A DNA stretch of 60,221 nt from Micavibrio sp. Lineage in GTDB: Bacteria; Pseudomonadota; Alphaproteobacteria; Micavibrionales; Micavibrionaceae. How positions within the stretch are numbered: the first letter of the stretch is position 1; each line of letters starts with the position of its first letter. The translations under genes were made by a program, and so were the position numbers. Below the pieces are notes generated by a model. The model saw only the letters and a list, made by a program, of their open reading frames with translations. It was not told the origin of the DNA and did not search any database. The DNA is taken from contig NZNU01000040.1 in assembly GCA_002695035.1 (NCBI GenBank), positions 1-60,221 on the forward strand, in the 5' to 3' direction. Of this stretch, positions 31,307 to 51,406 are shown in pieces.

Positions 31307-33010
31307 CTAGCTCCTCTCGGACCTCACCAGATGAACAACCACCTGTGGCTTGAAGCCATATATATGCGTCAACAACCGACGTGTCACAATTCTTAGTTCT
31401 TCAGAAACTATATGATCGTTACCCCAATCCCTCTTATTGATATCAATGAGCGTATCCTTAATCTCATCAATAATATCTTCGTTCAGGGCCTCCATATCGT
31501 CGCTATCTGCTTCTTCCAGACCTAACGTGGAAATTTCCGGTGCCCTAACAAGGCGGCACCTTTGGTCAAGTGTGATGGTTACGAATGCCGCTCCGGTATA
31601 TTGCAACTTCCGGCGTGCGGAAATGGCTGTGTTATCTGTATCAATCAATCTTTTGGGCTCCACGCCTATAAAACCTGTCTCCACATGGTTTATAATGCGG
31701 GGATTGGTCGGATCGAGTGCAATTACCGACCCGTTTGATGGTATAACTGTATGAGGCACGCCACATTCACGCGCAAGTTCGGCATGTGCCTCGGTCATCA
31801 TACGTTCTCCATGGACAGGCACTGCAATTCGCGGCTTTATCCATGATATCATATCTTTAAGCTCATCACGGCAGGGATGGCCTGACACATGGACATGCAC
31901 GCCCCATTCCGACATCGCCGATTTGTCATTAATAACCGTAATGCCTGAGGCAATAAGACTGTTTTTGACCTCATTAATATCTTTTTCGTTCCCAGGAATA
32001 TCTCGCGAAGAAAATATAACTGTATCCCCTTTTTCCAAGGATACACCCTTAAACTCTCCACGTGATATGCGGGATAAAGCGGCTCGGGATTCTCCTTGCG
32101 AGCCAGTTACCACCAAAACTACATTTTCCCGGGGGAGTAAGTCCAAATCCTCCTCATCGACGAAATCAGGTATATCGTCGAGCAAACCGCAGTTCATACC
32201 CGCACCGACCATATTCTTTAAAGACCTTCCCACGATGCAGACTGACCTGTTAGCGGCACGTGCCGCTTTGGAGATAGATTTCAAACGTCCGAGATTTGAA
32301 GAGAATGTTGTAATTGCCACTCTTTTCTTCTGCATTTTTAAGACTTCGGTTAATCCCGCTTCCACTAAGCTTTCAGAGGGAGTTCTGCCCGGCACTTGCG
32401 CATTTGTAGAATCCCCCACATAGGCAAGTACATTTTTCTCGCCTGCCTTTATAAAAGCATGCGGATCAACAGGTTTTCCCATCGCCGGATCTGTGTCCAG
32501 ATTCCAGTCACCTGTATGAATTATTGTTCCCTTATCTGTGTTTATAAATGTTGCAACCGCCTCTGGTATAGAATGAGTTACTCTTATGAAATCCAATTCA
32601 AACGGGCCGAGATCCAGGCGTTTTCCTGCCGAAATCTCAGTCACAGGCATATCCTTGCTTTCTGGAAACTCACTTATTTTTCGACGCATGACTTCAGCCG
32701 TAAAATGTGTGCAATAAACTGGGCAGGACAAGCGCGGCCACAGATAAGGAACCGCTCCAATATGATCTTCATGGCCATGTGTAACAATCAATCCAAGAAT
32801 ATCTTCTTTATATTTTTCTATAAAATCTGTCTTGGGCAAAAGAATATCAATCATGGGAAAGCGATGATCCGCAAAGCCTATACCGCAGTCCATTAGGAGC
32901 CACTTGCCCTTATAAGCATAGGCATTGAAATTGCAGCCGAATTCTTCACTACCCCCTAATGGAATGAAATGAATTGTATCCGGATCAAGATTTACATCGG
33001 TAACAGGCAT
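31307..33010 (-). CDS. rnj: Ribonuclease J
   Basis: RNase J is a metallo-beta-lactamase-fold enzyme with 5'-3' exo- and endonuclease activity in mRNA decay and rRNA processing. The metal motif HGHEDH spans residues 78-83 and further ligands lie in IIHTGDWNLD and HVSGHPCRDEL (beta-CASP). The beta-CASP part includes GRTPSESLVEAGL and VTGSQGESRAALSRIS, and the HPCRD/PVHGERMM segments complete the active site. Length 567 fits alphaproteobacterial RNase J. Five bases downstream of coaX. Confidence 0.95.
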   Translation of the reverse strand: MPVTDVNLDPDTIHFIPLGGSEEFGCNFNAYAYKGKWLLMDCGIGFADHRFPMIDILLPKTDFIEKYKEDILGLIVTHGHEDHIGAVPYLWPRLSCPVYCTHFTAEVMRRKISEFPESKDMPVTEISAGKRLDLGPFELDFIRVTHSIPEAVATFINTDKGTIIHTGDWNLDTDPAMGKPVDPHAFIKAGEKNVLAYVGDSTNAQVPGRTPSESLVEAGLTEVLKMQKKRVAITTFSSNLGRLKSISKAARAANRSVCIVGRSLKNMVGAGMNCGLLDDIPDFVDEEDLDLLPRENVVLVVTGSQGESRAALSRISRGEFKGVSLEKGDTVIFSSRDIPGNEKDINEVKNSLIASGITVINDKSAMSEWGVHVHVSGHPCRDELKDMISWIKPRIAVPVHGERMMTEAHAELARECGVPHTVIPSNGSVIALDPTNPRIINHVETGFIGVEPKRLIDTDNTAISARRKLQYTGAAFVTITLDQRCRLVRAPEISTLGLEEADSDDMEALNEDIIDEIKDTLIDINKRDWGNDHIVSEELRIVTRRLLTHIYGFKPQVVVHLVRSERS

Positions 33011-33015: not shown

Positions 33016-33804
33016 TTAAGCTACTTTCTGCTCAGCGTTTTTAATTGATTTATATATTGTCAAAAGTCCTTTTAGGGTCAGCTCCTGGTCCACTTCGTTT
33101 ATACATTTAAGGTTTTTTGCATAAATACCCGCTAAACCTCCTGTGGCGACAATAACTGGACTTCCATTTATTTCGTTTCTCAAGCGACCGATAAGACCTT
33201 CGATCATGCTGACATAGCCCCAATATATTCCCGACTGCATAGCTTCTACCGTGTTTGTACCTATGACTTTTTCAGGAGCTGCGATATCAATTTTGGGAAG
33301 TTTAGCCGCCGCCGCATGTAAGGCATTTAGAGATAAATTAATTCCCGGGGCAATTATGCCGCCGGCATATGCGCCCTCAGCAGTCACCACATCAAAGGTT
33401 GTTGCTGTACCAAAATCGATAATGATCGCGGGGGTTTTATAAGTGTTATTAACGGCAACGGCATTTACAAGGCGGTCGGCCCCAATCTCTTCCGGTTTCC
33501 TTAACAGGATTTCTACAGGCGGCCTGACGGCGTCATGTCCGATGAAATGGGCCTCGCACTCGAAATGTATTTTACACAACTGTTGCAGCTGAAAATTGGC
33601 ATCAGGCACAACAGAACTGATAATTGCTTCCTTAACCATACCGAAATCCAGTGATTTGATTTGGAAAAGTTGATACAGCATTGCCGCATATTCATCAGCA
33701 CTTCGCGCAGAATCTGTTTTACAACGCCACGACGCCTTAAATTCATTGCCATCATGTAAGGCAAATACGCAATTTGTGTTTCCGGCATCAATCAGCAAAA
33801 GCAT
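33016..33804 (-). CDS. coaX: Type III pantothenate kinase
   Basis: CoaX phosphorylates pantothenate, the first step of coenzyme A synthesis; the type III enzyme is not feedback-inhibited by CoA. The actin-like ATPase fold shows LLLIDAGNTNCVFAL (phosphate 1, Asp6), EEIGADRLVNAVAV, and IIDFGTATTFDVV (phosphate 2), plus GGIIAPGINLSLNAL and VIVATGGLAG. Length 262 is usual. Nine bases after birA and five before rnj, a conserved alphaproteobacterial trio. Confidence 0.96.
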   Translation of the reverse strand: MLLLIDAGNTNCVFALHDGNEFKASWRCKTDSARSADEYAAMLYQLFQIKSLDFGMVKEAIISSVVPDANFQLQQLCKIHFECEAHFIGHDAVRPPVEILLRKPEEIGADRLVNAVAVNNTYKTPAIIIDFGTATTFDVVTAEGAYAGGIIAPGINLSLNALHAAAAKLPKIDIAAPEKVIGTNTVEAMQSGIYWGYVSMIEGLIGRLRNEINGSPVIVATGGLAGIYAKNLKCINEVDQELTLKGLLTIYKSIKNAEQKVA

Positions 33805-33813: not shown

Positions 33814-34539
33814 CTATTTTTCAAAATATACATCACCCGCAGTTATACGTTTTATATCACCATTGTCCAGTAACAAAAGCAACGCCCCGTCATCGTCCAA
33901 ATCCTTAAAAACCCCATGATACTCACCCGATGCTGTCCGTGCTCTCCCGCGTTCGCCAAGGCCAAAAGCATAGGAACGCCACGCCGAGGCAATTTCTAAG
34001 AATCCATTTTTTCTATATATATTAATGAAATATTCCAGATTCTTAAGAAAATTATTCAATACCGTTTCCCTTAATACACCCTCTGCGTAGTCCGACAAAC
34101 CTATTCTATCGCCTTCTTCTTGCGGTAAAATGTTTACCCCAAACCCTATAAACAGATGAGTTACAATATTCTTTGAATTTGTTTCTGTTTCCAGAAGAAT
34201 GCCTGCGCATTTCCTCTTTTCGATTAGCACATCATTCGGCCATTTTAATTTTGGCTGTATACCATCTGTATCAATGATATCCTCGATTGTGTTGGCAAGT
34301 GCTACTGCAACTATGAACGCATAGAGCCCCGCCTCCTGTAGAGAACACTCAGGTTTTAAAAGGAGTGAACAATAGAGGTTACCTGTGGGAGAGTCCCATT
34401 GGCGTCCTTGACGGCCACGTCCGCCCGTTTGTTTATCTGCATAAACAACCGTTCCTTCATCAGCACCGCTTACCGCTTTTTCACGCAAAAGATGCTGCGT
34501 AGAGTCTACCGATTTAACGTGATGTATTTTCCAGTTCAT
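33814..34539 (-). CDS. birA: Biotin-[acetyl-CoA-carboxylase] ligase
   Basis: BirA attaches biotin to carboxylase carrier proteins. It lacks the N-terminal DNA-binding domain of E. coli BirA, so it is a pure ligase. The catalytic core has VDSTQHLLRE, the GRGRQGRQWDSPTGNLYCSLLLKP biotin-AMP loop (split here by convention), WPNDVLIEKRKCAGILLE and a C-terminal SH3-like domain. The ATG at 34539 (MNWKIHHV) is preferred: GGCGG lies eight bases upstream, and longer readings would start deep inside nuoN. It overlaps nuoN by 26 bases. Confidence 0.93.
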   Translation of the reverse strand: MNWKIHHVKSVDSTQHLLREKAVSGADEGTVVYADKQTGGRGRQGRQWDSPTGNLYCSLLLKPECSLQEAGLYAFIVAVALANTIEDIIDTDGIQPKLKWPNDVLIEKRKCAGILLETETNSKNIVTHLFIGFGVNILPQEEGDRIGLSDYAEGVLRETVLNNFLKNLEYFINIYRKNGFLEIASAWRSYAFGLGERGRARTASGEYHGVFKDLDDDGALLLLLDNGDIKRITAGDVYFEK

Positions 34540-36028
34540 AGGCATTACCGCCATCAGAAGTGCTCGGTGTATCTTGTGAGACATATACGACCTGGGTTGC
34601 CTGGCGGGCCGTCTCAAGCAGCTTTAAAGGTGACAGAATGAAAAGCACTGAAAATGCGAGAGCAAGGACAGCTACTGATTTTCGGCCAATACTGTGAGGC
34701 TGGTCGAAGGCATCTTCTTCTTCATCAAAAAACATCACCTTAATAATTCTCAAATAATAAAAGGCTGCAACCACAGAGGTTAAAACACCAAAGACTGCCA
34801 GTGCATACATGCCTTCTGCAACGGCGACTTCAAAAACGAAGAACTTACCAAAGAAGCCCGCAAGCGGAGGAATACCGCTGATAGAAAACATTAAGACAGC
34901 AAAACCATAGGCCATCAAAGGATGCGTTTTTGAAAGCCCTGATAGGTCACTGATTTCTTTTAAAGCCCGCCCGTCACGGCGCATAAACATGACAAAAGCA
35001 AATATGCCTGCTGTCGTAATCATATAAATGACCATATAAAACATGGCTGCGGCATATCCTTCTGCAGTAGCAGCAGCCACCCCGATAAGGGCAAAACCGA
35101 CATTACTGATTGAGCTATAGGCAAGAAGGCGTTTAATGCGTGTCTGGGCAAGCCCTGCAAACGCGCCCCATGCCATAGACATAACCGAAAGAAAGATAAT
35201 GACAACCTGCCATTGATCGGCAAGGTTTTCCAATGGCCCGCCCAAAAATCTTATTAACATTGCAAAAGCCGCAAGCTTAGGCGCCATTGCAAAGAAAGCC
35301 GTTACAGATGTAGGGGCCCCCTCATAGACATCGGGTGTCCACATGTGGAATGGTACCGCAGAGACTTTGAACGCTAGTCCGGATAAAACAAACATAACCC
35401 CGAAAAGAAATCCTGTTAGGCGATCACCTTCAAGCCCCGGCACTACAGAGGCAATATCGCTGTACCCAAGTACACCGGTAAAGCCGTAAATAAGAGAAAT
35501 CCCAAAGAGAATTAATCCTGAGGATAAAGCCCCAAGGATAAAATATTTAAGCCCTGCTTCACTGGATGTGACAGAGCGACGACGAAATGCGGCTAACACA
35601 TAAAGGCTTAAAGACTGCAATTCCAATGCGATATAAAAGGAAAGTAAATGACTGGCCGACACCATCATGAACATGCCCAGTGTCGCAAACATCATAAGTA
35701 TGGGATATTCAAATCTGTTAAGCGCCTCTTCCCTCAAATAACGGGAGGACAGAATAAGGCTTATACCGACAGCAACCGCAATTGCCAGCTTTGAGAACAT
35801 GGCAAAACGGCCGAGAACAAACATGTCGTTCAAAGCATAAATCTTTTCAGTCGGCACGCCAAACATCATGATTGCAGAAATCGCAACCACACCAAAACAT
35901 AATTTAAAAAGAAGGCTTGTAAACTCATTACCTTTGATTACACCGATAACCAAAAGCATCAATGTTGAGATGACCATAAACAGTTCAGGCCATACAGGGT
36001 AAAGGGATACGAAAGTCAAACCGGTCAT
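34514..36028 (-). CDS. nuoN: NADH-quinone oxidoreductase subunit N
   Basis: NuoN is one of the three antiporter-like proton-pumping subunits in the membrane arm of complex I. The 504-residue protein has about 14 hydrophobic helices, with the conserved core SAVPFHMWTPDVYEGAPTSVTAF (about 240-262) and KRLLAYSSISNVGFALIG. Glu and Lys residues inside helices (for example EL in SFYIALELQSLSLYVL) are the expected proton path. Directly abuts nuoM and overlaps birA. Confidence 0.96.
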   Translation of the reverse strand: MTGLTFVSLYPVWPELFMVISTLMLLVIGVIKGNEFTSLLFKLCFGVVAISAIMMFGVPTEKIYALNDMFVLGRFAMFSKLAIAVAVGISLILSSRYLREEALNRFEYPILMMFATLGMFMMVSASHLLSFYIALELQSLSLYVLAAFRRRSVTSSEAGLKYFILGALSSGLILFGISLIYGFTGVLGYSDIASVVPGLEGDRLTGFLFGVMFVLSGLAFKVSAVPFHMWTPDVYEGAPTSVTAFFAMAPKLAAFAMLIRFLGGPLENLADQWQVVIIFLSVMSMAWGAFAGLAQTRIKRLLAYSSISNVGFALIGVAAATAEGYAAAMFYMVIYMITTAGIFAFVMFMRRDGRALKEISDLSGLSKTHPLMAYGFAVLMFSISGIPPLAGFFGKFFVFEVAVAEGMYALAVFGVLTSVVAAFYYLRIIKVMFFDEEEDAFDQPHSIGRKSVAVLALAFSVLFILSPLKLLETARQATQVVYVSQDTPSTSDGGNAYELENTSR

Positions 36029-37564
36029 TTAAAAGTCCTCCTCTATCACGGGAGAGGTAATTTCAGCAGGCCCTGACGCATTGACAAGGGCTGCGTTATA
36101 ATTGGAGATAATTTGTTTTACCGCAGGTTCAGTTCGCTCAAGGACGTATCCAGGCTGCACTCCAAGCCATATTACAAGCGCAATAATGGGAATGAAAATC
36201 ATCATTTCGCGGTAATCCACGTCAGGCATGGCGGCGGCCTCGTTGTTAGTAACCGGTCCGAAGACAACACGGCGGTACAAGTACAGCATATAAGCAGCAC
36301 CCAAAATCACGCCTGTTGCGGCAAAAGCAGCTACCGCAGTATTGGCCTGGAATGCCCCTAACAGAGCAAGAAACTCACCTACAAACCCGGAGGTTCCAGG
36401 AAGGCCAACAGAGGCCAGCATGAAAATCATAAAAATAGTTGCATAGCGCGGCATATTCCGGACAATTCCGCCATATTGGCTTATATCCCGAGTATGCAAT
36501 CTGTCATATATGACACCCACACAAAGGAATAATGCCGCTGATATCAGGCCGTGACTTATCATCTGGAAAATCCCACCCTGCATACCTTCGACTGTTGCGG
36601 TAAAAAGACCAAGAGTTACAAAGCCCATATGTGCAACTGATGAGTAAGCTATAAGCTTTTTCATATCCTCTTGCACAAGCGCAATTAGAGATGTGTAGAT
36701 AATAGCCACGACGCTCAACCAGAAAATCATAGGTGTGAAGAACTCGGTCGCTTCGGGGAACATTGGAATTGAAAACCTGAGGAAACCATACCCCCCCATT
36801 TTCAACAACACTCCTGCCAATATAACAGAACCGGCAGTCGGGGCTTCAACGTGTGCATCAGGCAACCATGTGTGGACCGGCCACATTGGCATCTTCACAG
36901 CAAAAGACGCAAAGAAAGCGAGGAATAGCCAAATTTGCAAATTGCGTGCGACCGGATTTTCCATCAGTTCCAGAATATCCATTGTTCCGACTTGCGTATA
37001 AAGTGTCAGCAAGGCAACCAACATCAAAACAGAGCCGAGCAACGTATATAAAAAGAATTTGAATGACGAATAGACACGCCTTGGGCCGCCCCATACACCG
37101 ATGATAAGAAACATCGGAATGAGAACACCTTCAAAAAAGACATAGAACAGCATCGCATCCAACGCGCTAAATGTTCCTATCATAAATGTTTCAAGGACAA
37201 GGAAGGCAATCATGTACTCTTTTACACGGGAAGTAATTGAGCGCCAGCTGGTCAGAATACATATTGGCAAGAGAAAAGCAGATAATACGATGAAGAACAA
37301 GGATATCCCGTCCACACCCATGTGATAGGATATGCCCAGATTACCAAACCAGTCAGCTTTCTCAACAAATTGGAAATCGGGATTCCCTGGCTCAAATCTG
37401 GAAAGCATCAATAGCGATAAAAGGAAAACAAAAAGAGATGTGTAAAGCGCCGCATATTTAGCATTACGTGCTTTCACAACATCATCGCCCTGAATCATGG
37501 CGATAAAGAAAACCCCCACAAGCGGCAGGTATGTCATTAGTGAAAGTAAAGGAAAATCAACCAT
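36029..37564 (-). CDS. nuoM: NADH-quinone oxidoreductase subunit M
   Basis: NuoM is an antiporter-like membrane subunit of complex I that pumps protons. Recognised from [35 protein letters not shown] and the helix glutamate region in [22 protein letters not shown] (key Glu in FFEG). About 14 helices, 511 residues, normal. It abuts nuoN with no gap and follows nuoL by six bases. Confidence 0.97.
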
Positions 37565-37570: not shown

Positions 37571-39586
37571 TTACCACCCTTTTAACCGGATAAACAGCCA
37601 TGTCACGATACCGATAACACCCAGCATCATCACAAAAGCATATTGATAGACAAGGCCTGCCTGGAATTTGCTTAAGAGCGACCCACCGCGTCTTGAGATT
37701 TTGGATACGCCGTCCGGTCCCAAACCGTCAATTACGGCCTTGTCACCCTTTTTCCAAAAGACATTTCCGAGACGGAACGTGTTCTTTGTGAAGACCTGAT
37801 TATAAAGCTCATCGAAATACCATTTATTCAGGAACAGTAGATATACAGGCTTGAAAAGCTTTTTAAAACCTCCGGCTATTCCCTCTTTAAACATGTATAT
37901 CAGATATGCAAGCCCGATACCGATAAGACCGACCACCAATGGCGCAAGCTTTACCCAGAGGTCAACATTATGTGCGGCTGTTACCGTATCATTGCCTTCT
38001 AAAATAAACAAAGCGTCACCCCAAAAATCTTCGCTGCCGGGCAATAGTCCCGAGGCGTGAGTTTCAGTACCCGCCTCATGAGAGATTTCAGCATGGGCAC
38101 CACCTTCTTCATGATGGGTGCCGCTTACAAACGGCGTGTAAAATGCCATTCCTGCAAATATTGCACCAATTGCAAGCACACAAAGAGGCACCAGCATAAT
38201 GCGCGGAGACTCATGCACATGATCCTGTACATTTTTGGACGCGCGCGACTTTCCGTGAAAGGTCATCAGTATTAAGCGCCATGTATAAAATGCCGTCATA
38301 AAGGCAGCCGCTATCCCGAACCAGAAAGCCATAGTTCCAAACCAGCTGTTATCTGCGTAAGCCGCTTCCAAGATCATATCCTTGGAATAATATCCGGCAA
38401 ACAAAGGTATCCCGGCAAGGGCAAGGCCGCCAATCCACATAAACGCGTATGTAAAAGGAATTTTTCGCCAGAGACCACCCATGTTGCGCATATCCTGCTC
38501 ATCAGACATTGCGTGAATAACAGAGCCTGCGCCCAGGAATAAAAGCGCTTTGAAAAACGCGTGTGTCATAAGGTGAAATACCGCCGCACCATATGCAGAC
38601 ACCCCAAGTGCAAAGAACATGTAACCCAGCTGGCTCATGGTGGAGTAAGCTATAACCCGCTTAATATCGAATTGAGTCATACCAATAGTTGCCGCAACAA
38701 AGGCAGTTACCGCACCGACTATACAGACAACCATCAATGCAATTGGAGCAAATTCAAAAACAGGTGAAAATCTTGCAACAAGGAAAACACCAGCTGTTAC
38801 CATCGTAGCGGCGTGAATGAGGGCTGACACAGGTGTAGGCCCCTCCATCGCATCGGGCAACCATGTATGAAGGCCAAGCTGCGCCGATTTACCCATAGCC
38901 CCTATAAATAGAAGCAGACAGATCAATGTCAGGGCGTGAATCTCAAAACCGAAAAATTCAAGCACACGACCGGCCTGATCTGGTGCCGCCTCAAAAATCA
39001 CATCAAAGGATATGCTGCCGAAAACGACAAAGCAGGCCATCATACCAAGAGCCAAACCGAAGTCACCAACACGGTTGACGACAAAAGCCTTAATGGCCGC
39101 AGCATTCGCAGAATGTTTTGTGTTCCAGAAGCCGATAAGCAAATATGAGGCTAGCCCCACGCCTTCCCAACCAAAGAAAAGCTGAAGGAGGTTATCGGAA
39201 GTGACCAGCATTAACATGGCAAAAGTAAACAAGCTCAAATAAGCCATGAACCGGCTTTTATGCTTATCATGTGCCATATAGCCAATTGAATAAACATGGA
39301 CACACGCTGAGACTATATTGATGACGCACATCATCACCACGGTCAGCGTGTCCATCTTTAAAGCCCAATCGACACTCAGGCCTCCGGTATGCACCCATTC
39401 TGCAAGTGTTAATGTATAAGGTGCCTGCCCTACTCCGACTTTAAAAAACAGAAATACCGAGCAAATTGCAGAGACGATCACACCTGCACACGTTACAAAT
39501 TGTACTGCCTTGTCACCAATTTCACGACCAAAGCAACCCGCTATTAAAAAAGCAATTAAAGGCAAAAATACGGCTAAATAATCCAT
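37571..39586 (-). CDS. nuoL: NADH-quinone oxidoreductase subunit L
   Basis: NuoL is the distal proton-pumping subunit of complex I with a long lateral helix at its C-terminus. Conserved blocks: LLQLFFGWEGVGLASYLLIGFW (key Glu), GLHTWLPDAMEGPTPVSALIHAATMVTAGVFL and KRVIAYSTMSQLGYMFFALG. A His/Glu-rich soluble loop lies near residues 490-515 (GTHHEEGGAHAEISHEAG), then the lateral helix and last membrane helix. Length 671 is usual. Confidence 0.97.
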   Translation of the reverse strand: MDYLAVFLPLIAFLIAGCFGREIGDKAVQFVTCAGVIVSAICSVFLFFKVGVGQAPYTLTLAEWVHTGGLSVDWALKMDTLTVVMMCVINIVSACVHVYSIGYMAHDKHKSRFMAYLSLFTFAMLMLVTSDNLLQLFFGWEGVGLASYLLIGFWNTKHSANAAAIKAFVVNRVGDFGLALGMMACFVVFGSISFDVIFEAAPDQAGRVLEFFGFEIHALTLICLLLFIGAMGKSAQLGLHTWLPDAMEGPTPVSALIHAATMVTAGVFLVARFSPVFEFAPIALMVVCIVGAVTAFVAATIGMTQFDIKRVIAYSTMSQLGYMFFALGVSAYGAAVFHLMTHAFFKALLFLGAGSVIHAMSDEQDMRNMGGLWRKIPFTYAFMWIGGLALAGIPLFAGYYSKDMILEAAYADNSWFGTMAFWFGIAAAFMTAFYTWRLILMTFHGKSRASKNVQDHVHESPRIMLVPLCVLAIGAIFAGMAFYTPFVSGTHHEEGGAHAEISHEAGTETHASGLLPGSEDFWGDALFILEGNDTVTAAHNVDLWVKLAPLVVGLIGIGLAYLIYMFKEGIAGGFKKLFKPVYLLFLNKWYFDELYNQVFTKNTFRLGNVFWKKGDKAVIDGLGPDGVSKISRRGGSLLSKFQAGLVYQYAFVMMLGVIGIVTWLFIRLKGW

Positions 39587-39590: not shown

Positions 39591-39902
39591 TTACCCCTTC
39601 AAGCTCGAAATGTCTTCAATGGCAATTGAGCCGCGTGATCTGAAAAACGAAACGAGTATAGCCAGACCGATTGCCGCCTCTGCAGCAGCCACGGTAAGGA
39701 TAAAGAGGCTGAAAACCTGGCCGGATAAATCGTTCAGATAGGCTGAGAAAGCAACAAAGTTGATATTAACCGAAAGAAGGATCAACTCGATAGACATCAG
39801 TATGACAATCACATTTTTCCGGTTAATAAAAATTCCCATTACACCAAGCGTGAAAAGCGCCGATGCCAGAAAAAGGTAATGTATTAAAGTAATCTCAAAC
39901 AT
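39591..39902 (-). CDS. nuoK: NADH-quinone oxidoreductase subunit K
   Basis: NuoK is a three-helix membrane subunit of complex I. It has the conserved buried glutamates in [20 protein letters not shown] (about residues 31-50) and in [15 protein letters not shown] (about 69-83), which form part of the central proton pathway. Length 103 is exact for the family. Between nuoJ and nuoL with five- and four-base gaps. Confidence 0.97.
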
Positions 39903-39907: not shown

Positions 39908-40507
39908 TTAAACACCTGTCCTTTTTTCAACCTTATGAATCTCAAGAACATCCTCGGGGCGTCTGGAGACCTGATCTCCAACATTCTGACGCTTAACGCC
40001 GGTTCTATGTGTCAGAGTAAGAACAATGGCACCTATCATCGCGACGAGAAGGATCAAACCTGCAGACTGGAAAATGTATATGTAATCTGTGTAAAGCACC
40101 TGGCCTAATGCTTGTGTATTTGTAACATCATCAGTAACAGCCTGAGTTTCAAAACGCCCTTCCCCAAAAACAGCCCGGAAAAGAAGCAGCAATTCAGCAA
40201 GGAGGACCACCCCTAAAACTATTCCGATGGGGGCATATTTAACAACACCTTCGCGCAGCCTCGAAAAATCAATATCCAGCATCATAACAACGAAGAGGAA
40301 AAGCACCGCCACAGCGCCTACATAAGCAATGACCAAAATCATGGCCACAAATTCTGCACCGAGCATCAGGAACAACCCGGCCGCATTAAAGAAAGCCAGG
40401 ATCAGACATAAAACAGAGTGAACCGGATTTTTCAATGTAATGACCGCCGTCGCGCTTAAAAGCATGACAGAGGCAAATAAATAAAAAACAACGGCTTGAA
40501 CAATCAT
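39908..40507 (-). CDS. nuoJ: NADH-quinone oxidoreductase subunit J
   Basis: NuoJ is a membrane subunit of complex I lying next to the quinone chamber. Five helices are visible in 199 residues; helix 3 reads [24 protein letters not shown], the conserved segment whose pi-bulge changes shape on turnover. The C-terminus after the last helix is basic. It heads the detached nuoJKLMN-birA-coaX-rnj unit, since a plus-strand gene separates it from nuoI. Confidence 0.96.
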
Positions 40508-40550
40508 GAGGTGATCCGCGAATTGTGTTTAATAAACATATATGAAGTGT

Positions 40551-40578
40551 TTTATAGATTCCTCATATACAGTGCAAG
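40551..40578 (-). promoter_or_regulatory. Possible promoter of the nuoJ-N unit
   Basis: The minus strand of the divergent gap reads CTTGCA (40573-40578), 16 bases, TATAAA (40551-40556), ending 44 bases before the nuoJ start. Spacing is a little short, as for the candidate at bamA. If real it would give nuoJ-N a separate promoter. Confidence 0.3.
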
Positions 40579-40672
40579 GGGCAAAGCAGGATTTCCCCAA
40601 AAGTTATTTGCCTTTTTAAAAGAATAATTTACTTTTAAAACATAAGTTTAAGAAAATTAAGGAAAAATAGAT

Positions 40673-42004
40673 ATGCCTCGCTGGAAATGGCTTATAACAA
40701 AAATAACAAACCGCTTGTGGTTCAGGTCAAGTATCTTCTGCCTTGCTGGTATCGGTAGCGCATTATTGGCTCTTTACGGGAAAACCTTCATTCCAGATGA
40801 GTTTTCAAGAACGCTCGAGCCTGGAGCCATTGAGGACATTCTTAATATTATTGCCTCCAGTATGCTGGCTGTCACAATTTTCTCACTAACAACAATGGTA
40901 GCCGCGTTCAGGGCTGTTACAGATAACGCAACGCCACGTTCCACAAAACTTCTTATCAGTGACCGTGCCGCGCAAAATGCCCTCTCAACATTTTTAGGCT
41001 CTTTCATATTTTCTTTGGTTGGCATCATCACGATTAAGCTTGGACTTTATGAAGATTCGGGCAGGATAATCTTATTTGTTATCACTATCGGTGTTATAAC
41101 CCTGGTTGTGGCCACAATGTTAAGCTGGATTGAATATCTTATTAAGCTAGGCCGCGTAGGTGAGACCATTAAAAGGATAGAACAGGCGGCAACCGAGGCG
41201 ATAAGCAATACCGCCAAAGACCCTTATTTCGGGGCAAAACCTTTTAATCAAGACAAGGATAAACCTCCCTCGAAAGTCACCGAAGTCTATCAAAATAAAA
41301 TCGGCTACCTTCAGCATATAGATATGGCTTCTTTAAATTCTGTTTGTGACGATCAGGGAGTTGAAATATATGTCAATATAATTCCAGGCTCATTCTGTGA
41401 CGGCAGTACGTCTATAGCTTCTGTTAAAGGAACTTGCGGTGATGATGATATCGACAAGATCAGAAACGCATTTATGATCGATGAAGTCAGATCTTTCACA
41501 CAAGATCCACGCTATGGTCTGATTGTTTTATCAGAGATCGCGTCAAAAGCCTTATCACCGGGAATAAACGACCCAGGAACCGCCATAGCGGTTATAGTCT
41601 CAATGACGCGTATCTTATCATATTGGCAGAACAAGAAAGAGCCGATCAGTAGCGAAGAAAAGGACAAGCTCGAGAATAAAGACGGGTCACAAAACGGTGA
41701 CAGTGATGGAATACCTGTTATTAAATATCCGTCCATCCATATGCCATGTGTCGATGTATCAAGTATGTTTAACGGTGCCTTCAACGCAATTGCCCGTGAC
41801 GGGGCATCCATTTTAGAAGTTCAGCTTTACCTGCAAAAATCCTTTAAATCTCTCTCGGAAATGGCCGCTGATGATTTTAAAGAGAATGCAGAGAGGCATT
41901 CCTATCTATCATATCAACGCGCTTTGGCTGAGATGAGTATTCAGGAAGATAAAGACCGGTTGAAAGAAATTGTCCTAAGAAAAACAAAGCCCAAAAGCGT
42001 TTGA
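40673..42004 (+). CDS. DUF2254 membrane protein
   Basis: A 443-residue inner-membrane protein of the DUF2254 family (function not established). Four hydrophobic helices cover about residues 15-165, including SSMLAVTIFSLTTMVAAF and the following AVTDNATPRSTKLLISDRAAQNALSTFLGSFIFSLVGI, which is characteristic. The soluble C-terminal half has GLIVLSEIASKALSPGINDPGTAIAV, the second hallmark. A Glu/Asp/Ser-rich loop (about 322-345) interrupts it. AAGGA lies eight bases before the ATG. It is on the plus strand between nuoI and nuoJ, which are both on the minus strand, and ends four bases from the nuoI stop. No terminator is visible at that junction. Confidence 0.9.
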   Translation: MPRWKWLITKITNRLWFRSSIFCLAGIGSALLALYGKTFIPDEFSRTLEPGAIEDILNIIASSMLAVTIFSLTTMVAAFRAVTDNATPRSTKLLISDRAAQNALSTFLGSFIFSLVGIITIKLGLYEDSGRIILFVITIGVITLVVATMLSWIEYLIKLGRVGETIKRIEQAATEAISNTAKDPYFGAKPFNQDKDKPPSKVTEVYQNKIGYLQHIDMASLNSVCDDQGVEIYVNIIPGSFCDGSTSIASVKGTCGDDDIDKIRNAFMIDEVRSFTQDPRYGLIVLSEIASKALSPGINDPGTAIAVIVSMTRILSYWQNKKEPISSEEKDKLENKDGSQNGDSDGIPVIKYPSIHMPCVDVSSMFNGAFNAIARDGASILEVQLYLQKSFKSLSEMAADDFKENAERHSYLSYQRALAEMSIQEDKDRLKEIVLRKTKPKSV

Positions 42005-42008
42005 GTTT

Positions 42009-42491
42009 TTATCTGTAAGGGGCATCCGCTGCAAGGTTTGCCGCAAGCTGGGCTTCCCATTTATCTCCATTATCAAGCAGTTTTTGCTTGTTATAATAAA
42101 GCTCTTCGCGGGTTTCTGTAGAAAACTCAAAATTAGGCCCTTCCACGATCGCATCAACCGGACAGGCTTCCTGACACAATCCGCAATAGATACATTTTGT
42201 CATATCAATATCATAACGCGTTGTGCGTCTTGATCCATCAGCACGAGGCTCGGATTCGATCGTTATTGCAAGAGCGGGGCAAATTGCTTCGCACAGCTTA
42301 CAGGCTATGCAACGCTCTTCTCCATTCGGATAACGTCGAAGTGCGTGCTCACCGCGAAAACGTGGTGAAATAGGTCCCTTCTCAAACGGATAGTTAATTG
42401 TAGCTCTTGGCACAAAAAACATGTATTTCAGGGTTAACAGCATACCCTTGGCTATTTCTTTAAGAAGAAGAGAATTTAAAAAATTATTCAT
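42009..42491 (-). CDS. nuoI: NADH-quinone oxidoreductase subunit I
   Basis: NuoI carries clusters N6a and N6b of complex I, passing electrons to NuoB. Two CxxCxxCxxxCP motifs are intact: Cys61, 64, 67, 71 and Cys100, 103, 106, 110. Length 160 is typical for Alphaproteobacteria. It ends the nuoA-I segment; downstream lies the oppositely oriented DUF2254 gene. Confidence 0.97.
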
Positions 42492-42507: not shown

Positions 42508-42996
42508 TTATGCAGGCCTCCTTAGATCGTTATTCCATTTGTATTTTAAATCATCATCGATTGCTGCAACACCGCGCAATCCCTCATCCAATATAGTCGG
42601 TATTGACAAATCTATAATTCCTAGAGGGGATTGGTCACGACAATAGTCCGTTTCTTTGAAAGAGAAAAGCTCCCCATAGCCCTCCTGCTTCCAAAAACTT
42701 TGCCTGCTTAATATTTCACTTACCGGGTTATCTTTATGAAAGGGAAGTATGATTTCTGTATAGCCGGCCTGAGCAGCCTCTGATTTCAAAAGCGAAAGTA
42801 TTGCCCCCATCTGATCTAGAGGTTTTTTATTAACCCAATGATTTTCAGGGTAGGTTAAATCTATCCAGGTGGATGCCGTACCAAGATAGCGCGTTAGACC
42901 TACCAGTGTCGGTGATTGTGGCATTTCTGAAAATGTCTGGGTACTGGCCCGTCTAAAAGTATCGGATAATTCTATCAGATCAAGTGGCTTACTCAT
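42508..42996 (-). CDS. Unrecognised protein between nuoH and nuoI
   Basis: A 162-residue soluble protein with no family that I recognise, three bases after nuoH and 16 before nuoI, so it is co-transcribed with both. It has no signal peptide or membrane helix. Patterned beta segments ([45 protein letters not shown]) might suggest an alpha/beta fold such as GNAT, but this is a guess. One cysteine only (TDYCRD), so an iron-sulfur role is unlikely. It could be an assembly factor, an accessory protein or a passenger gene. Confidence 0.7.
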
Positions 42997-44016: not shown

Positions 44017-44430
44017 TTAAGCAGCCTCTTCTTTTTCAAAATCTGACATCACTTTTTCAATATCGGGAGGCAGGTAATTCGGGCCCTTCATCACCTTCCC
44101 ATCACTTTCACGGCGAATGGGCTTACCATCCTCACCCAGCTTACTCATATTTGCCCGGTGTACCTCGGTGAATGCTACTTCTTTTAGATTTTGAAGGCCG
44201 AAAGAAAGATATGCACCATCCAGTACGTATTGCAAATCTGTCAGAGCATCCAGAACTTCGACAATGTCTTTTTGTTCCAATGCTTCTTTTAACTCATCAA
44301 GCTCCTCAGCAAGCAGATTGATCCTTAGAAGATTTGTTTTCTCATCGGAAATATCAACCGCTTCACTTACAGGCAGCCCGTAAGCTCTGTGAAATTCAGC
44401 GACTCTTTCAAGAGTTGTTTCTTTAGACAT
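44017..44430 (-). CDS. MazG/PRA-PH-like NTP pyrophosphohydrolase
   Basis: A 137-residue all-alpha protein resembling the PRA-PH/MazG-like pyrophosphohydrolases. The metal-binding pattern is seen as NLLAEELDELKEAL (Glu42, Glu43, Glu46) and VEVLDALTDLQYVLDGAYL (Glu58, Asp61, Asp65). The C-terminal half carries HRANMSKLGEDGKPIRR and KGPNYLPPDIE, typical of phage-type MazG-like members. It probably hydrolyses a nucleoside triphosphate to monophosphate and PPi; the substrate is unknown. It lies between nuoG (one base) and nuoH (three bases), an unusual place for a nucleotide-pool enzyme. Confidence 0.8.
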   Translation of the reverse strand: MSKETTLERVAEFHRAYGLPVSEAVDISDEKTNLLRINLLAEELDELKEALEQKDIVEVLDALTDLQYVLDGAYLSFGLQNLKEVAFTEVHRANMSKLGEDGKPIRRESDGKVMKGPNYLPPDIEKVMSDFEKEEAA

Positions 44431-44431: not shown

Positions 44432-46465
44432 TTAAGCAGCCTTCTCGTTTAAGGGTTTTAGTATGAACTCTTCATAGCATTGATGCATTGTATTAGAAGC
44501 ACGACAAATGCTGTTTGCCAGATAGAAACCATCTGTGTCTACTTTTATATCAACATCCCCTATTTTTCCATTGGATGAGGCACTTACCCATTCCCCTTCA
44601 GGCAAAACATCAACATTTTGATACTCTGAAAATTCTTTATAGATACGCTCTCTTAGCTCATAGTGGCTCGAATAAGAAAAGGTTTTGTTCAGTTTTTCAG
44701 ACAAGGCACGAAGAATTCTCCAATCTTCCTTTGCCTGGCCGGGTGCAAAAACTGCGCGTTTACCCAGCTGCACACGCCCTTCTGTATTAACAAGAAGGAA
44801 GTCTTTTTCAGTAAAGGCTGAGCCAGGTAAAATAACATCGGCACGATGTGCACCTCGGTCTCCGTGATGCCCCTGATAAATTACAAAAGCATCTTTTGAA
44901 ATAGTTTCAACTACTTTTGAATCTGCATTGAGAAGATATACAACCTCTGATTTTTTAAGATCAAAGTCACTTACCAGCCCCATATCCAAGGCTGCGGTGG
45001 TGGCTGCATGTGCATGGACAACATTAAAGCCATTCCAATCATTGTCCTTATTAATAACACCGATTTTTTCAGCTAATGCCACTGTCGCTTTGTGAATATC
45101 CTCACCATCTTTGTGCTGAAGGGCCTCACTGCCCAGCAAAATCAAAGGCTTTTCTGCTGATTTAAACTCTTTGGCAAAACCGGATCTGGCAGAACCTATT
45201 TTGTCGATTTCCTTCAGGTTGTTACCAAGATACTCACAAGGATAGCCAAGGTCTATTTCCTGTCCGATCATCGCAATAGGAATACGTTTTTCAAGCCAGG
45301 TCTTGCGAATGCGTGCATTCAACAAGGCAGCATCATGTCTTGGGTTAAAGCCAATGATAAGTATTGCATCAGCATTCTCAACACCAGCAATCCCGGAATT
45401 CATAATATAATGCCCGCGACTTGCGGTAGAAAGCATCATCCCGTGCGGGACAGCAGATATATGCTTTACATCAAGAGCATCAGCGAGGTCCTTAAAAGCG
45501 ACAAGGTCTTCTACCACGCATAAGCCCCCTGCCCGCATGCCGATTTTGGAAGCAGGCACCTTCTGTAATCTTGTTGCACATAATGATAGGGCGTCTTCCC
45601 AGCTGCATTCCTCAAGCTTACCTTTTGCATTTCGCATATAAGGTCTATCGAGTCTGCGCTTTTTCAAGCCATCATAGGAAAAACGCGTACGGTCATCAAT
45701 CCATTCCTCATTGACGTCTTCATGCAAACGGGGCAAAACACGCATTACCTCTCCACCACGGCTATCAACACGTATATTACTGCCAAGACCGTTATGGACA
45801 TCAATGGTCTCTGTTTTTGTAAGCTCCCACGGGCGCGCTTTGTAAGCGTAAGGTTTATTGGTCAGGGCCCCGACAGGGCAAATATCGATCATATTACCGG
45901 AAAGCTCTGTAGTAACAGCCTTTTCAATAAAGGTACCGATTTCAACATCTTCACCGCGATTAAGAAGGCCAAGCTCCGGAGTGCCCGCAACCTCTTCGCC
46001 AAATCTGACACATCTGGTACATTGGATACAGCGTGTCATAATCGTTTTAATTAAAGGGCCTAAATCCTTATTGGGAACGGCACGTTTTGACTCACGGTAG
46101 CGGGAACGGTCGAAACCATATCCCATGGCCTGATCCTGCAAATCACATTCCCCACCCTGATCACAAATCGGGCAATCAAGCGGATGGTTGATAAGGAGCA
46201 TTTCCATCACACCACGGCGCGCTTTCTTTACGACATCGGACTCGGTTTCAACTTCCATGCCGTCACCCGCAGCCATCGCGCAAGAGGCAACCGGCTTGGG
46301 TGCTCCCTTAACCTCGACGAGACACATGCGGCAGTTGGCAGGCACACTCAAGCGGTCATGGTAGCAAAAACGAGGTATCTCATAGCCGACCTGCTCTGCG
46401 GCCTGCAAAATAGATGTGCCGTTTTCGACTTCGACTTCTGTTCCATTTATCTTTAACTTAGGCAT
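44432..46465 (-). CDS. nuoG: NADH-quinone oxidoreductase subunit G
   Basis: NuoG is the largest peripheral subunit of complex I. The N-terminal ferredoxin domain holds the 2Fe-2S ligands Cys34, 45, 48 and 62; next the His94/Cys98/Cys101/Cys107 cluster and the CxxCxxC (146, 149, 152) plus Cys196 cluster. A molybdopterin-oxidoreductase-like domain follows without cofactor residues. The extra N7 cluster motif seen in E. coli is not evident. Length 677 is usual for Alphaproteobacteria. Confidence 0.96.
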   Translation of the reverse strand: MPKLKINGTEVEVENGTSILQAAEQVGYEIPRFCYHDRLSVPANCRMCLVEVKGAPKPVASCAMAAGDGMEVETESDVVKKARRGVMEMLLINHPLDCPICDQGGECDLQDQAMGYGFDRSRYRESKRAVPNKDLGPLIKTIMTRCIQCTRCVRFGEEVAGTPELGLLNRGEDVEIGTFIEKAVTTELSGNMIDICPVGALTNKPYAYKARPWELTKTETIDVHNGLGSNIRVDSRGGEVMRVLPRLHEDVNEEWIDDRTRFSYDGLKKRRLDRPYMRNAKGKLEECSWEDALSLCATRLQKVPASKIGMRAGGLCVVEDLVAFKDLADALDVKHISAVPHGMMLSTASRGHYIMNSGIAGVENADAILIIGFNPRHDAALLNARIRKTWLEKRIPIAMIGQEIDLGYPCEYLGNNLKEIDKIGSARSGFAKEFKSAEKPLILLGSEALQHKDGEDIHKATVALAEKIGVINKDNDWNGFNVVHAHAATTAALDMGLVSDFDLKKSEVVYLLNADSKVVETISKDAFVIYQGHHGDRGAHRADVILPGSAFTEKDFLLVNTEGRVQLGKRAVFAPGQAKEDWRILRALSEKLNKTFSYSSHYELRERIYKEFSEYQNVDVLPEGEWVSASSNGKIGDVDIKVDTDGFYLANSICRASNTMHQCYEEFILKPLNEKAA

Positions 46466-46469
46466 ATCT

Positions 46470-46658
46470 CTACCTTCTACATGATCGGCAATTGGTTTCT
46501 TCCGGCCGGTTGCGTTTCAAGGCCGCATCCATAATATCTTTTCTGACAACTGTAATTTCTGAGCTGCCGGCTCTAAAAGTAAAAGTCAAAGGCATCACTG
46601 GACGCTCTATATCGTGCCCACATTTACATTTTCTGCTTTGACTTGTCACCTGTGCCAT
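46470..46658 (-). CDS. Small four-cysteine protein between nuoF and nuoG
   Basis: A 62-residue basic protein, not recognised. Its start overlaps the nuoF stop by one base (TAATG), with AAAGGCAG just upstream, and its stop is four bases before the nuoG start, so coupled translation is likely. Two cysteine pairs, CKCG (Cys11, Cys13) near the N-terminus and CRSC (Cys57, Cys60) at the end, could bind zinc or an iron-sulfur cluster. The middle is a hydrophobic/basic patterned segment (MPLTFTFRAGSSEITVVRKDI). A role in complex I assembly is only suggested by position. Confidence 0.65.
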   Translation of the reverse strand: MAQVTSQSRKCKCGHDIERPVMPLTFTFRAGSSEITVVRKDIMDAALKRNRPEETNCRSCRR

Positions 46659-47947
46659 TACGCTGCCTTTGCTGTCTTGCGGTATTCAAGGATCCGCTTC
46701 TCCATAACTGGTCTGAAATGACGTATAAGACCCTGTATTGGCCAGGCAGAGGCATCACCATGCGCACAAATTGTATGGCCTTCTATTTCCTTGGTCAGGT
46801 CGTAAAGCATGTCGATTTCCTCAACAGTTGCATTTCCCGTCACCATCCGCTGCATAGTACGCCAGAGCCAGCCAGTCCCTTCACGGCACGGCGTGCACTG
46901 CCCGCAGCTTTCATGCATATAAAAGAAAGACAGTCTTGCAATCGCATAGACGATATCAGTCGATTTATCCATAACGATTACCCCTGCTGTACCTAAGCCG
47001 CTCTGGACTTCGCGCAAAGAATCAAAATCCATCTTTACGGTCGAACAGATATCACGCGGCAAAAGTGGCGTAGATGAGCCACCGGGGATGACTGCTAACA
47101 GATTATCCCATCCACCGCGCACACCACCTGCATGTTTTTCAAGAAGTTCTTTAAGGCCAATGCCCATTTCTTCTTCGACATTACAGGGTTGGTTGACGTG
47201 CCCTGATATGCAGAAAAGCTTTGTCCCTGTGTTCTTTTCGTCCCGACCAAACCCTGAAAACCAAGATCCGCCCCGACGCAATATTGTTGGCGCTACCGCA
47301 ATGGTTTCTACATTATTTACTGTCGTTGGACACGCATAAAGTCCGGCCATAGCAGGAAAAGGAGGCTTGTTACGAGGCTGGCCTTTTTTACCTTCCAGGG
47401 ACTCAAGTAATGCTGTTTCCTCGCCACAAATATAGGCTCCCGCTCCACGATGCAGGTAAACATCAAAATCCCAACCGGATTTAGCGGCATTCTTCCCCAA
47501 AAGCCCGGCATCATAAGCCTCTTCAATAGCTTTTACCAAAGCCGAACCTTCGTTATAAAACTCTCCGCGGATATAAATATAAGCAGCATGTGCGCCCATG
47601 GCAAACCCCGCCAACAAAGCCCCCTCAAGAAGCTTATGCGGTTCAAAGCGCATAATATCACGGTCTTTACATGTGCCCGGCTCTGATTCATCGGCATTAA
47701 TAACCAGGTAATGGGGCTTTCCTGTTTTTTCGGGATCAGGCATGAAAGACCACTTAACACCTGTGGGAAATCCCGCACCGCCGCGACCACGAAGCCCCGA
47801 CGCTTTCATCTCGGAAATAATCCAATCTTTTCCTTTTTTAATAAAGCCGGCTGTATCATCCCAGTCACCACGTTTTTTCGCAGCCTTTAGGCCCGAATCC
47901 TGCCAGCCGTAAATATTTGTAAAAATGCGGTCCTTGTCCTGTAACAT
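46658..47947 (-). CDS. nuoF: NADH-quinone oxidoreductase subunit F
   Basis: NuoF binds NADH and FMN and holds cluster N3, the electron entry point of complex [14 protein letters not shown] (about 54-66) and [17 protein letters not shown] (about 172-188) form the nucleotide and flavin sites. The 4Fe-4S ligands are Cys348, Cys351, Cys354 in CGQCTPC and Cys394. Length 429 is normal. It abuts nuoE. Confidence 0.97.
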
Positions 47948-48601
47948 TTAAACCACCTTTTCTTTCTTTGCCAAATCCTCAAGAGTTGTAGGACCTTCCA
48001 CAGCCATTGAACCTCTGCGGCCTTGCTGTGACCCAACTGAGACTTTCTTACCTTCTTTTAAGTCTTTAAGAATTTGTGTCATGTTTTCAGGCGTAAGGTC
48101 TTCATAATAATCATCATTAATCTGCACCATAGGCGCATTTACACAAGCTCCTAAGCACTCAACTTCTATAGCAGTAAAAAGCCCGTCTTCTGTTGTCTCG
48201 CCAAGATGTGCACCAAGCTCTTTCTCACAAGCTTTCACGATATCTGCAGAGCCCCGCAACCAGCAAGGTGTCGTCGTGCAGCATTGGACCAGATATTTAC
48301 CGACTGGTGCAAGATTATACATTGAATAGAAAGTAGCCACCTCATAGACCTTTATCGGTGGTTGACCGACAACATCTGCGATCTCATCCATAGCTGCCCT
48401 TGGTATCCAGCCCCCGTAAGGTGTTTTTGCCTTTGCACCTTCTTCCCCGACCTGTCTTTGCGCCAGATCCAGTAATGGCATGATTGCTGAACGAGCCTGA
48501 TTTGAAGGGTAACGCGCAAGAATTTCATCGACTTTCTTTTTATTTTTAAAAGAAAAGTCTTTGGGCTGATACTCTGCGTTTGGTTCGAACTTTGGTTTCA
48601 T
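47948..48601 (-). CDS. nuoE: NADH-quinone oxidoreductase subunit E
   Basis: NuoE carries the 2Fe-2S cluster N1a next to FMN. Ligands are Cys108 and Cys113 in the CTTTPC segment and Cys149 and Cys153 in CLGAC. A helical N-terminal part precedes the thioredoxin-like domain. The last 30 residues are a Gly/Arg/Glu/Lys-rich extension, so at 217 residues it is longer than the E. coli form (166). It abuts nuoF directly and a 110-residue unknown upstream. Confidence 0.96.
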   Translation of the reverse strand: MKPKFEPNAEYQPKDFSFKNKKKVDEILARYPSNQARSAIMPLLDLAQRQVGEEGAKAKTPYGGWIPRAAMDEIADVVGQPPIKVYEVATFYSMYNLAPVGKYLVQCCTTTPCWLRGSADIVKACEKELGAHLGETTEDGLFTAIEVECLGACVNAPMVQINDDYYEDLTPENMTQILKDLKEGKKVSVGSQQGRRGSMAVEGPTTLEDLAKKEKVV

Positions 48602-48934
48602 CTACACAAATTCCCTGATATGAAACTGTTTAACTTTCGACATCACTTTGTCTTTCGCATAAGTCGCACTGCGGCGAAAATCCTTTACGCTAACCACATC
48701 TTCCATATCGCGAATTGCTCTTGCTACGCGCGGCGTCGCCTCCCTTACAACAATTCTGTTACCTCTTTTTGCCGAAGCCGACATGAAAGTAAACTCACTC
48801 ATAGAACCGAGCCCTCGACCATACAGGGTATCCTGCAGGGCCACTTTATTCTTGGCAGATTCACTCATACGGCACTCACCCTCTGCAGACTTTTTAAAAG
48901 TCACAAGAATATCTTTTCTAAACGAACTTCTCAT
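48602..48934 (-). CDS. Unrecognised protein between nuoD and nuoE
   Basis: A 110-residue basic protein that I do not recognise, wedged between nuoD (ATGA overlap of four bases) and nuoE (no gap). The ATG at 48934 has GGAGAAA upstream; a second ATG at 48868 (MSESAKNK, 88 residues) follows GAGGGTGAG and is also plausible. No membrane helix. The C-terminal half is rich in Arg and Lys ([34 protein letters not shown]). Paracoccus and Rhodobacter nuo operons are known to carry unassigned genes; whether this is one of them cannot be told by eye. Confidence 0.65.
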
Positions 48935-50142
48935 CGGTCAATTTCTCCAAATACGATGTCAAGTGAGCCTATAATTGAAACTGTATCGGCAAGCATGTGT
49001 CCTTTCGACATAAAATCCAGCCCCTGCAGATGATAGAAGCCCGGCGCACGTAAACGGCATCGATAGGGTCTGTTTGTTCCATCTGACACAATGTATACCG
49101 CAAATTCACCCTTAGGCGCCTCAACAGCCGCATAAGTTTCACCAGCAGGCACGTGATACCCTTCAGTATACAGTTTGAAGTGATGAATCATTGCTTCCAT
49201 TGAGCGCTTCATCTCGGCACGAGGCGGTGGGGCAATCTTATAGTCATTAACCTTAACAGGGCCCTCCGGCATCTGCTCAATTGCCTGGCGCATAATTTTG
49301 ATAGATTGCCGCATTTCTTCCATGCGCACCAGATACCTGGCATAACAATCGCCCGTTTTTCCTACAGGAATATCAAAATCCATTTTTTCATAAGCATCAT
49401 AAGGCTGGCTCTTACGTAGGTCCCAAGCAACATTTGATCCACGCAGCATTGGGCCTGTGAATCCCCAATCGAGCGCTTCTTGTTTGGAAACCACCCCGAT
49501 ATCAACAGTCCTTTGCTTGAAAATACGGTTATTTGTCAGAAGGTTATCCAGATCATTTATGACTTTTGGAAGTGTCTCCGTCCACTCATAAATATCCTCA
49601 GCAAGCCCGGCAGGCATGTCCTGATGAACACCACCAGGGCGGAAATAATTGGCGTGCAAACGTGCTCCACAGACACGCTCATAAAACTCCATTCCAATTT
49701 CGCGTTCTTCAAATCCCCAAAGCGATGGCGTAATCGCCCCGACATCAAGCGCAAAAGTTGTTATATTCAAAAGATGGTTGAGAACACGACCCAACTCACA
49801 GAACAATACACGGATATATTGTCCACGCTCAGGCACTGTGATTCCAAGAAGCTTTTCAACACCAAGCGCAAAAGCGTGCTCCTGATTCATTGGCGCGACA
49901 TAATCAAGCCTGTCAAAATAAGGGATCGCCTGTAAATAAGTCTTATATTCGATAAGTTTTTCCGTACCACGGTGCAAAAGACCAATATGAGGGTCAGCAC
50001 GTTCAACGACCTCACCCTCCATCTCAAGAACTAACCTTAGAACGCCGTGTGCCGCAGGGTGTTGCGGTCCAAAATTCATAGTATAGGGCTTGATTTGGGT
50101 CTCATCAGAGATTTCAACATTCTGGGTCAAAGGCTCGGTCAT
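48931..50142 (-). CDS. nuoD: NADH-quinone oxidoreductase subunit D
   Basis: NuoD is the 49-kDa-type subunit that forms the quinone-reduction site together with NuoB and NuoH. The quinone loop [15 protein letters not shown] is at about residues 22-36; [31 protein letters not shown] and RSGVNWDLR-like ([19 protein letters not shown]) segments follow, and the protein ends DIVFGEIDR, the invariant terminus. Length 403 is usual. One base from nuoC; it is not fused to it. Confidence 0.98.
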
Positions 50143-50143
50143 A

Positions 50144-50812: not shown

Positions 50813-50827
50813 GTGGCAATCCTCGTC

Positions 50828-51403: not shown

Positions 51404-51406
51404 AAA

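Follow-up and report, generated by a model that had tools for sequence, protein, structure and literature searches.

The DNA analysed here (the window, 60,221 nt from Micavibrio sp.; contig 64 of the 82 that make up a 2.14-Mb genome) encodes all 14 genes from nuoA to nuoN on the minus strand with their order kept, as the first-pass annotation had described and as Pfam (nuoA-E, H, K, N) and NCBIfam (nuoF, G, I, J, L, M) matches bear out. The nuo genes are usually regarded as one operon, and the nuoJ-N block encodes most of the proton-pumping membrane arm of complex I. The stretch 40508-42008 is the entire gap between nuoJ and nuoI and consists of a 165-bp divergent spacer, a plus-strand DUF2254 gene and 4 bp up to the nuoI stop. 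Thus, the DUF2254 gene stands head to head with nuoJ and tail to tail with nuoI, and its earlier placement between these genes with a four-base gap to nuoI holds, both as an ORF and as a match to PF10011. The features of the region are as follows.

31307..33010, minus strand: RNase J-like gene, end of the block as followed here (TIGR00649; gene order)
33016..33804, minus strand: type III pantothenate kinase gene (PF03309; gene order)
33814..34617, minus strand: biotin protein ligase gene, overlapping nuoN (PF03099, PF02237; gene order)
34514..36028, minus strand: nuoN (PF00361 and position in the block)
36029..37564, minus strand: nuoM (NF004499)
37571..39586, minus strand: nuoL (NF005141)
39591..39902, minus strand: nuoK (PF00420)
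39908..40507, minus strand: nuoJ, first gene of the J-N block (NF005164, 269.9 bits)
40508..40672, no strand: divergent spacer between DUF2254 and nuoJ, 165 bp, putative promoter region for both; same length in the congener G002
40550..40578, minus strand: candidate nuoJ promoter-like element CTTGCA-N16-TATAAAA with 9/13 matches to the family element (degenerate), 71 bp upstream of the nuoJ start codon ATG
40673..42004, plus strand: DUF2254 membrane protein gene, antiparallel to nuo (ORF, 443 aa; PF10011, 293.7 bits)
42005..42008, no strand: convergent gap between the DUF2254 and nuoI stops, 4 bp; intrinsic terminator not found
42009..42491, minus strand: nuoI (NF004539, 304.5 bits)
42508..42996, minus strand: 162-aa ORF between nuoH and nuoI, present in G002 at 74.2% amino acid identity
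43000..44013, minus strand: nuoH (PF00146)
44017..44430, minus strand: MazG/PRA-PH-like gene between nuoG and nuoH (PF01503)
44432..51778, minus strand: nuoG, F, E, a 110-aa ORF, nuoD, C, B, A (NCBIfam, Pfam)
48602..48934, minus strand: the short codirectional ORF (110 aa) between nuoD and nuoE; Pfam searched, without match

The three codirectional extra ORFs (48602-48934, 44017-44430 and 42508-42996) were absent from the first-pass annotation. The MazG/PRA-PH-like gene (PF01503) also lies between nuoG and nuoH in many loci of the family that includes the window's genome (f1, see below), and the 162-aa ORF had no match in Pfam or NCBIfam. Downstream of nuoN, the biotin protein ligase gene is kept with the J-N block in many relatives; the RNase J-like gene scores 393.9 bits against TIGR00649, slightly below the cut-off of 400.

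The product of the plus-strand gene belongs to the DUF2254 family, with a score far above the PF10011 cut-off (28.8 bits) over profile positions 2-367 of 368. Its AlphaFold2 model, built from 11 sequences, is of middling confidence (mean pLDDT 73.8) and matched no PDB fold at E <= 0.001, and the best match of the sequence among solved structures had an E value of 0.38; the knotted folds of this family are treated in PMC11184937. A DUF2254-related protein is encoded in 11 of 58 genomes, including that of the window (G000), and adjoins nuo only in G000 and in G002, where it has the same place and orientation and likewise a 165-bp spacer. The other nine have it at a distance from nuo or on a separate contig. 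The second congener, G001, has a gene-free nuoI-nuoJ gap of 93 bp.

The nuoI/nuoJ junction was surveyed among 115 genomes, of which the window's genome and 72 others constitute the Micavibrio-like family f1, which includes Micavibrio aeruginosavorus ARL-13; 100 regions around nuoI and nuoJ (L044-L143) were extracted, with nuo genes located by tblastn. A gap of at least 150 bp separates the two genes in 42 of the 53 f1 loci in which they are linked vs none of 15 outgroup loci, and an antiparallel ORF of at least 100 aa occupies the junction in 33/53 vs 0/15. The comparison of nuoI-nuoJ spacing in related genomes, which the first-pass annotation had proposed as a check, thus reveals a slot for an antiparallel gene beyond chance expectation. 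The largest cluster of inserted ORFs has 35 members, every one of them antiparallel, from 34 genomes of f1 and two further families, f2 and f7. The four members that were scanned match the lipid A 3-O-deacylase PagL (PF09411) at 54.1-64.3 bits (cut-off 23), and in an alignment of 24 rows H170, S172 and N173 are invariant and E184 is conserved at 90% or more; the catalytic residues of PagL are His, Ser and Glu. The scores of these four proteins and the residue conservation in the 24 rows identify the gene in the relatives' slot as PagL-like (pagL below).

A PagL profile search of the 115 genomes yielded matches in 61, namely 43 of the 73 genomes of f1, four of f2/f7 and 14 of f3/f5, the last being weaker. 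In all 40 f1 genomes with a match and a located nuoJ, pagL shares a contig with nuoJ, reads from the other strand and lies 152-333 bp from the nuoJ match (positions compared by eye; G021, G027 and G070 have a PagL match without a nuoJ match and fall outside this count, and G031 pagL was taken from the profile search). The gene is also divergent from nuoJ on one contig in 4/4 genomes of f2/f7. In f3/f5, nuoJ was located in 11 of the 14 genomes, and in each of these 11 the homolog is separated from it by over 40 kb or sits on a different contig. PagL is therefore the usual occupant of the slot in f1, and the window's genus differs: the profile has no match in G000, G001 or G002, one of the two congeners being only 66% complete. 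The arrangement is older than DUF2254, which varies it at the level of the genus and has the same backward orientation as pagL. The first-pass annotation missed the usual holder of the slot and described only the current occupant; the main interest of the locus is the conserved divergent pair of pagL and nuoJ, together with the element upstream of nuoJ described below, and the DUF2254 case is a late variant.

The width of the gap is not in itself special to f1 because gaps are also wide in named alphaproteobacteria, where only 10 of 80 loci (four without a measurement) have nuoI and nuoJ less than 60 bp apart. Rhizobiaceae loci have gaps of about 115-170 bp without PagL, and nuoI-nuoJ gaps of about 100-170 bp recur across L152-L222, a set that includes Rhizobiaceae and Azospirillaceae; in these two families they come without the nuoJ element. 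As far as searched, the antiparallel gene and the nuoJ element are what is special to f1.

In eight genomes, nuoI and nuoJ are wholly unlinked (G004, G017, G020, G024, G035, G079, G081 and G091). They are 1.18 Mb apart on one contig in G024 and on different contigs in the other seven, each counted with at least 2 kb of contig left in the direction in which the partner was expected. On a tree of concatenated Nuo proteins from 85 genomes (five of 90, G002, G028, G043, G066 and G097, were dropped for too little nuo sequence), in which a branch supported at 100 sets off the outgroup, unlinking requires at least six changes. Five of the eight genomes (G017, G020, G035, G079 and G091) keep pagL beside nuoJ. 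Therefore, in these eight genomes nuoJ-N is independent of the nuoI transcript.

Upstream regions of nuoJ in f1 share the element CTTGCG-N16-ATTAGAA, located 54-100 bp before the start codon. With the spacer of 16, at least 10 of its 13 positions are matched in 50 of the 62 f1 regions that were scored, each more than 100 bp in length; this count is not independent, the consensus having been read from 64 f1 sequences including the same 62 (G028 and G074 were left out of the scoring). Dinucleotide shuffles of the f1 regions give a mean of 1.84 and a maximum of 6, and the remaining spacers within 13-20 give 0-12 of 64. Outside f1, 5 of 26 regions reach the threshold (four in f2/f7 and one, G046, in f5), with a shuffle mean of 0.86 and maximum of 3. 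When the f1 genomes are divided by arrangement, the element is present in 33/37 of those with PagL, 15/19 of those with a gap and no PagL, 2/3 of those that are unlinked and PagL-less, and none of the three (G012, G032, G072) in which nuoI and nuoJ are contiguous. Other regions below the threshold include those of the unlinked G024 (7 matches), of G013 (8) and of the PagL-bearing G022, G060, G067 and G079 (8-9).

More independent checks come from counts of exact copies in 104 family genomes and from 80 named alphaproteobacterial loci. The 104 genomes contain 29 exact matches in 28 genomes, 25 of them directly upstream of nuoJ, vs seven for the reversed-pattern control; in the genomes from which the consensus was not derived, nuoJ accounts for 7 of the 11 exact copies (G124, G125, G127, G129, G130, G136, G143). 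The four exact copies away from nuoJ are all from genus g28 (G140, G141 and twice in G142; L256-L258, L261). In a set of 58 relatives, eight genomes have the exact element once each, in all eight upstream of nuoJ (reversed control, 4). A matrix built from 52 copies, with G000 and G002 added by hand although they are below the threshold, exceeds 11 bits at 72 places in the window and the 100 loci, of which 58, its own source copies included, are upstream of nuoJ; the best match elsewhere has 16.9 bits. Of the 80 named loci, six reach at least 14 bits and the other 74 have at most -4.1; five of the six correspond to f1 regions already surveyed, the exception being L153 (27.6 bits).

The element departs from the sigma-70 consensus. 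We considered it as the general vegetative promoter of these genomes and rejected this reading because the relaxed form occurs about as often as its reversed control (189 vs 180 matches in 58 genomes, hand-summed) and the exact form is mostly at nuoJ. It may nevertheless be one sigma-70 promoter among many degenerate ones.

The window's own copy, CTTGCA-N16-TATAAAA, falls below the threshold of 10/13, and the relaxed pattern occurs in the window at chance level (3 matches vs 3.71 expected); what singles it out is its position, its spacing and its resemblance to the G001 copy. The window's genus (g1) and its sister in the tree (g17) score low in general, with 9 matches of 13 in G000, 10 in G001, 9 in G002, 7 in G018 and 8 in G072; judged from these sequences, the element is weak or absent in both genera, apparently decaying or changing there. 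Promoter-like sites in this region of the window are at the level of shuffled sequence, and 40508-40672 contains no TTGACA/TATAAT pair 16-18 bp apart, although the lineage's own promoter types may differ. Since the element decays or changes in this branch, the promoter proposed for the window would owe its placement to position and kinship, not to the score of the window's copy.

Taken together, these observations suggest that the nuo cluster consists of two transcription units, nuoA-I and nuoJ-N, the latter transcribed from a promoter upstream of nuoJ; we give this reading a probability of roughly 75%. The nuoA-I genes would form one unit, perhaps broken further, and nuoJ-N would form another that continues into the genes for biotin ligase, pantothenate kinase and RNase J, with its promoter, probably the conserved element, in the spacer upstream of nuoJ. 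The first-pass annotation had raised, as its second option, that nuoJ-N has a promoter of its own and that the two halves of complex I are set separately. Across the family, the conserved element, its scores below the threshold in the three contiguous genomes and the unlinking in eight genomes support this option well, and the separate regulation of the two parts is probable on that basis; the degenerate copy in the window (9/13) counts against it for the window itself. We further propose that the spacer probably dates from the last ancestor shared by f1, f2 and f7, in which nuoI and nuoJ were parted by an antiparallel pagL-like gene, that pagL was subsequently lost several times, and that in the window's genus DUF2254 came to fill the slot backward, sharing the divergent spacer with nuoJ and converging on nuoI.

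A more specific version, which we regard as speculative and on balance unlikely, is that a sigma factor or regulator dedicated to the element recognizes it and sets J-N apart from nuoA-I. If so, J-N would be set by its own signal, given that the exact element is almost unique in each genome and located at nuoJ; the divergent gene (pagL, or DUF2254 in the window's genus) would then possibly be under the same control, and the same would apply to predatory and related alphaproteobacteria.

The two-unit reading has to be weighed against the possibility that DUF2254 inserted recently and neutrally into a junction that tolerates insertions, with nuoJ using a nearby promoter and the arrangement having no regulatory meaning. 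This explanation overlaps with two transcription units and departs from that reading only in rejecting a conserved promoter and separate control. It fits the restriction of nuo-adjacent DUF2254 to G000 and G002 among the 11 of 58 genomes with a related gene, and it fits the looseness of other nuo junctions in f1, where gaps of at least 150 bp occur at nuoF|nuoG in 25 of 32 linked loci and at nuoG|nuoH in 43 of 54. We nevertheless consider it doubtful because conservation of both the nuoJ element and the divergent orientation reaches well outside the window's genus, and because the junctions within the J-N block are mostly tight, with gaps of this size at J|K in 2/63, K|L in 9/62, L|M in 2/59 and M|N in 6/58 f1 loci. 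At the two loose junctions themselves, compared across the window (44432-46657) and L044-L117, an antiparallel ORF of at least 100 aa is found at nuoF|nuoG in 13 of the 32 loci, and a MazG-like gene is often inside the nuoG|nuoH gap.

The other option of the first-pass annotation was a noncontiguous operon, in which the nuoA-I transcript crosses DUF2254 over its whole length in antisense and continues into nuoJ-N, with mutual control. In this noncontiguous-operon or excludon reading, the two mRNAs would act on each other through RNA polymerase collision and RNase III. A gene of opposite direction does lie inside the nuo cluster, as such an operon demands, and an antiparallel gene in the slot is widespread across f1. 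The remark that no terminator is visible also stands after a terminator scan and junction folding: terminator-like sites in 39500-43000 number 4 vs 3.7 expected, with none between the nuoI and DUF2254 stops, and folding of the junction on the two strands reveals no notable hairpin in the window (z of -0.33 and 0.33) or in G002 (0.45 and 1.82). A bulged hairpin seen by eye at about 41986-42006 was considered as a terminator and rejected, folding giving it no support in either genome, and two matches to known RNA families at the junction were below gathering scores and are taken as chance. Across f1 loci, terminator-like hairpins, filtered with a single-hairpin pattern, follow nuoI in just 5/64, nuoJ in 4/63, nuoH in 2/38 and the RNase J gene in 0/14. 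Intrinsic terminators are therefore not a feature of the nuoI end, where they are about as rare as after nuoJ and nuoH. The 3' end of the nuoI mRNA may overlap the DUF2254 (or pagL) mRNA, or Rho may end both. Read-through that yields antisense RNA may thus occur, but as the main source of nuoJ mRNA it is improbable, because nuoJ has its own conserved upstream element, which PagL-less loci with a gap mostly retain (15/19), and because in the eight unlinked genomes, five of which keep the pagL-nuoJ pair, nuoI sits elsewhere than nuoJ and such read-through is dispensable.

Among known systems, the closest in organization is the menE-menC-MW1733-ytkD-MW1731 noncontiguous operon of Staphylococcus aureus, in which one mRNA spans both parts (PMC7154746). 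As in that case, an opposite-strand gene splits a cluster devoted to one pathway and, at the nuo junction, an intrinsic terminator was not found; unlike in the men operon, the distal part of nuo has a conserved upstream element of its own and is wholly unlinked in several relatives. The convergence of nuoI and DUF2254 across 4 bp with no terminator found also resembles the class b excludons of PMC7154746 (convergent genes with overlapping 3' ends), with the difference that the 3' overlap at nuoI/DUF2254 is only predicted. Split nuo clusters are already known: most clades mix split and single-cluster complex I (PMC12361115). As in such clusters, the complex I genes of f1 are spread over at least two units; the f1 break differs in having a fixed junction, usually a divergent gene and a lineage-specific element upstream of the distal block. 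A conserved pagL/nuoJ divergent pair with a nuoJ element was not seen described in the titles and abstract openings among the matches listed.

The family appears to start the J-N block separately, with the exact promoter-like element nearly confined to nuoJ in each genome, and it offers a natural experiment on one junction, with versions that are pagL-filled, refilled, emptied, unlinked and apparently re-fused. Balanced expression of the complex I arms thus becomes a testable question in M. aeruginosavorus, for which an RNA-seq study has been published (PMC3189940).

The history of the slot can be traced to some extent on the Nuo tree, where the presence of pagL at nuoJ requires at least 12 changes. 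G000 and G001 group with G018 and G072, all without PagL, and the sister group of G035, G079 and G091 (support 90) carries it. The simplest history would be a loss of pagL before the g1/g17 split, followed by a later entry of DUF2254 in the G000/G002 line; alternatively, DUF2254 may have replaced pagL in the slot directly. In G012, with contiguous nuoI and nuoJ, the junction looks re-fused because its congener G069 still has pagL in the slot.

The G000/G002 comparison is itself heterogeneous. G002 (L045) is 97-99% identical to the window at 40097-40696 and 48497-49846; elsewhere on the contig, identity is 52-94% per 150-bp block (mostly 70-87%) and only 31-54% of four-fold sites in the genes outside the two tracts are identical. 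Purifying selection on the 165-bp spacer, which we had considered from its 161/165 identity between G000 and G002, is withdrawn: this identity is no evidence of selection because the spacer falls within a part of the mosaic that is 98-99% identical as a whole. The mosaic reflects either recombination with a sister species or an assembly of mixed origin.
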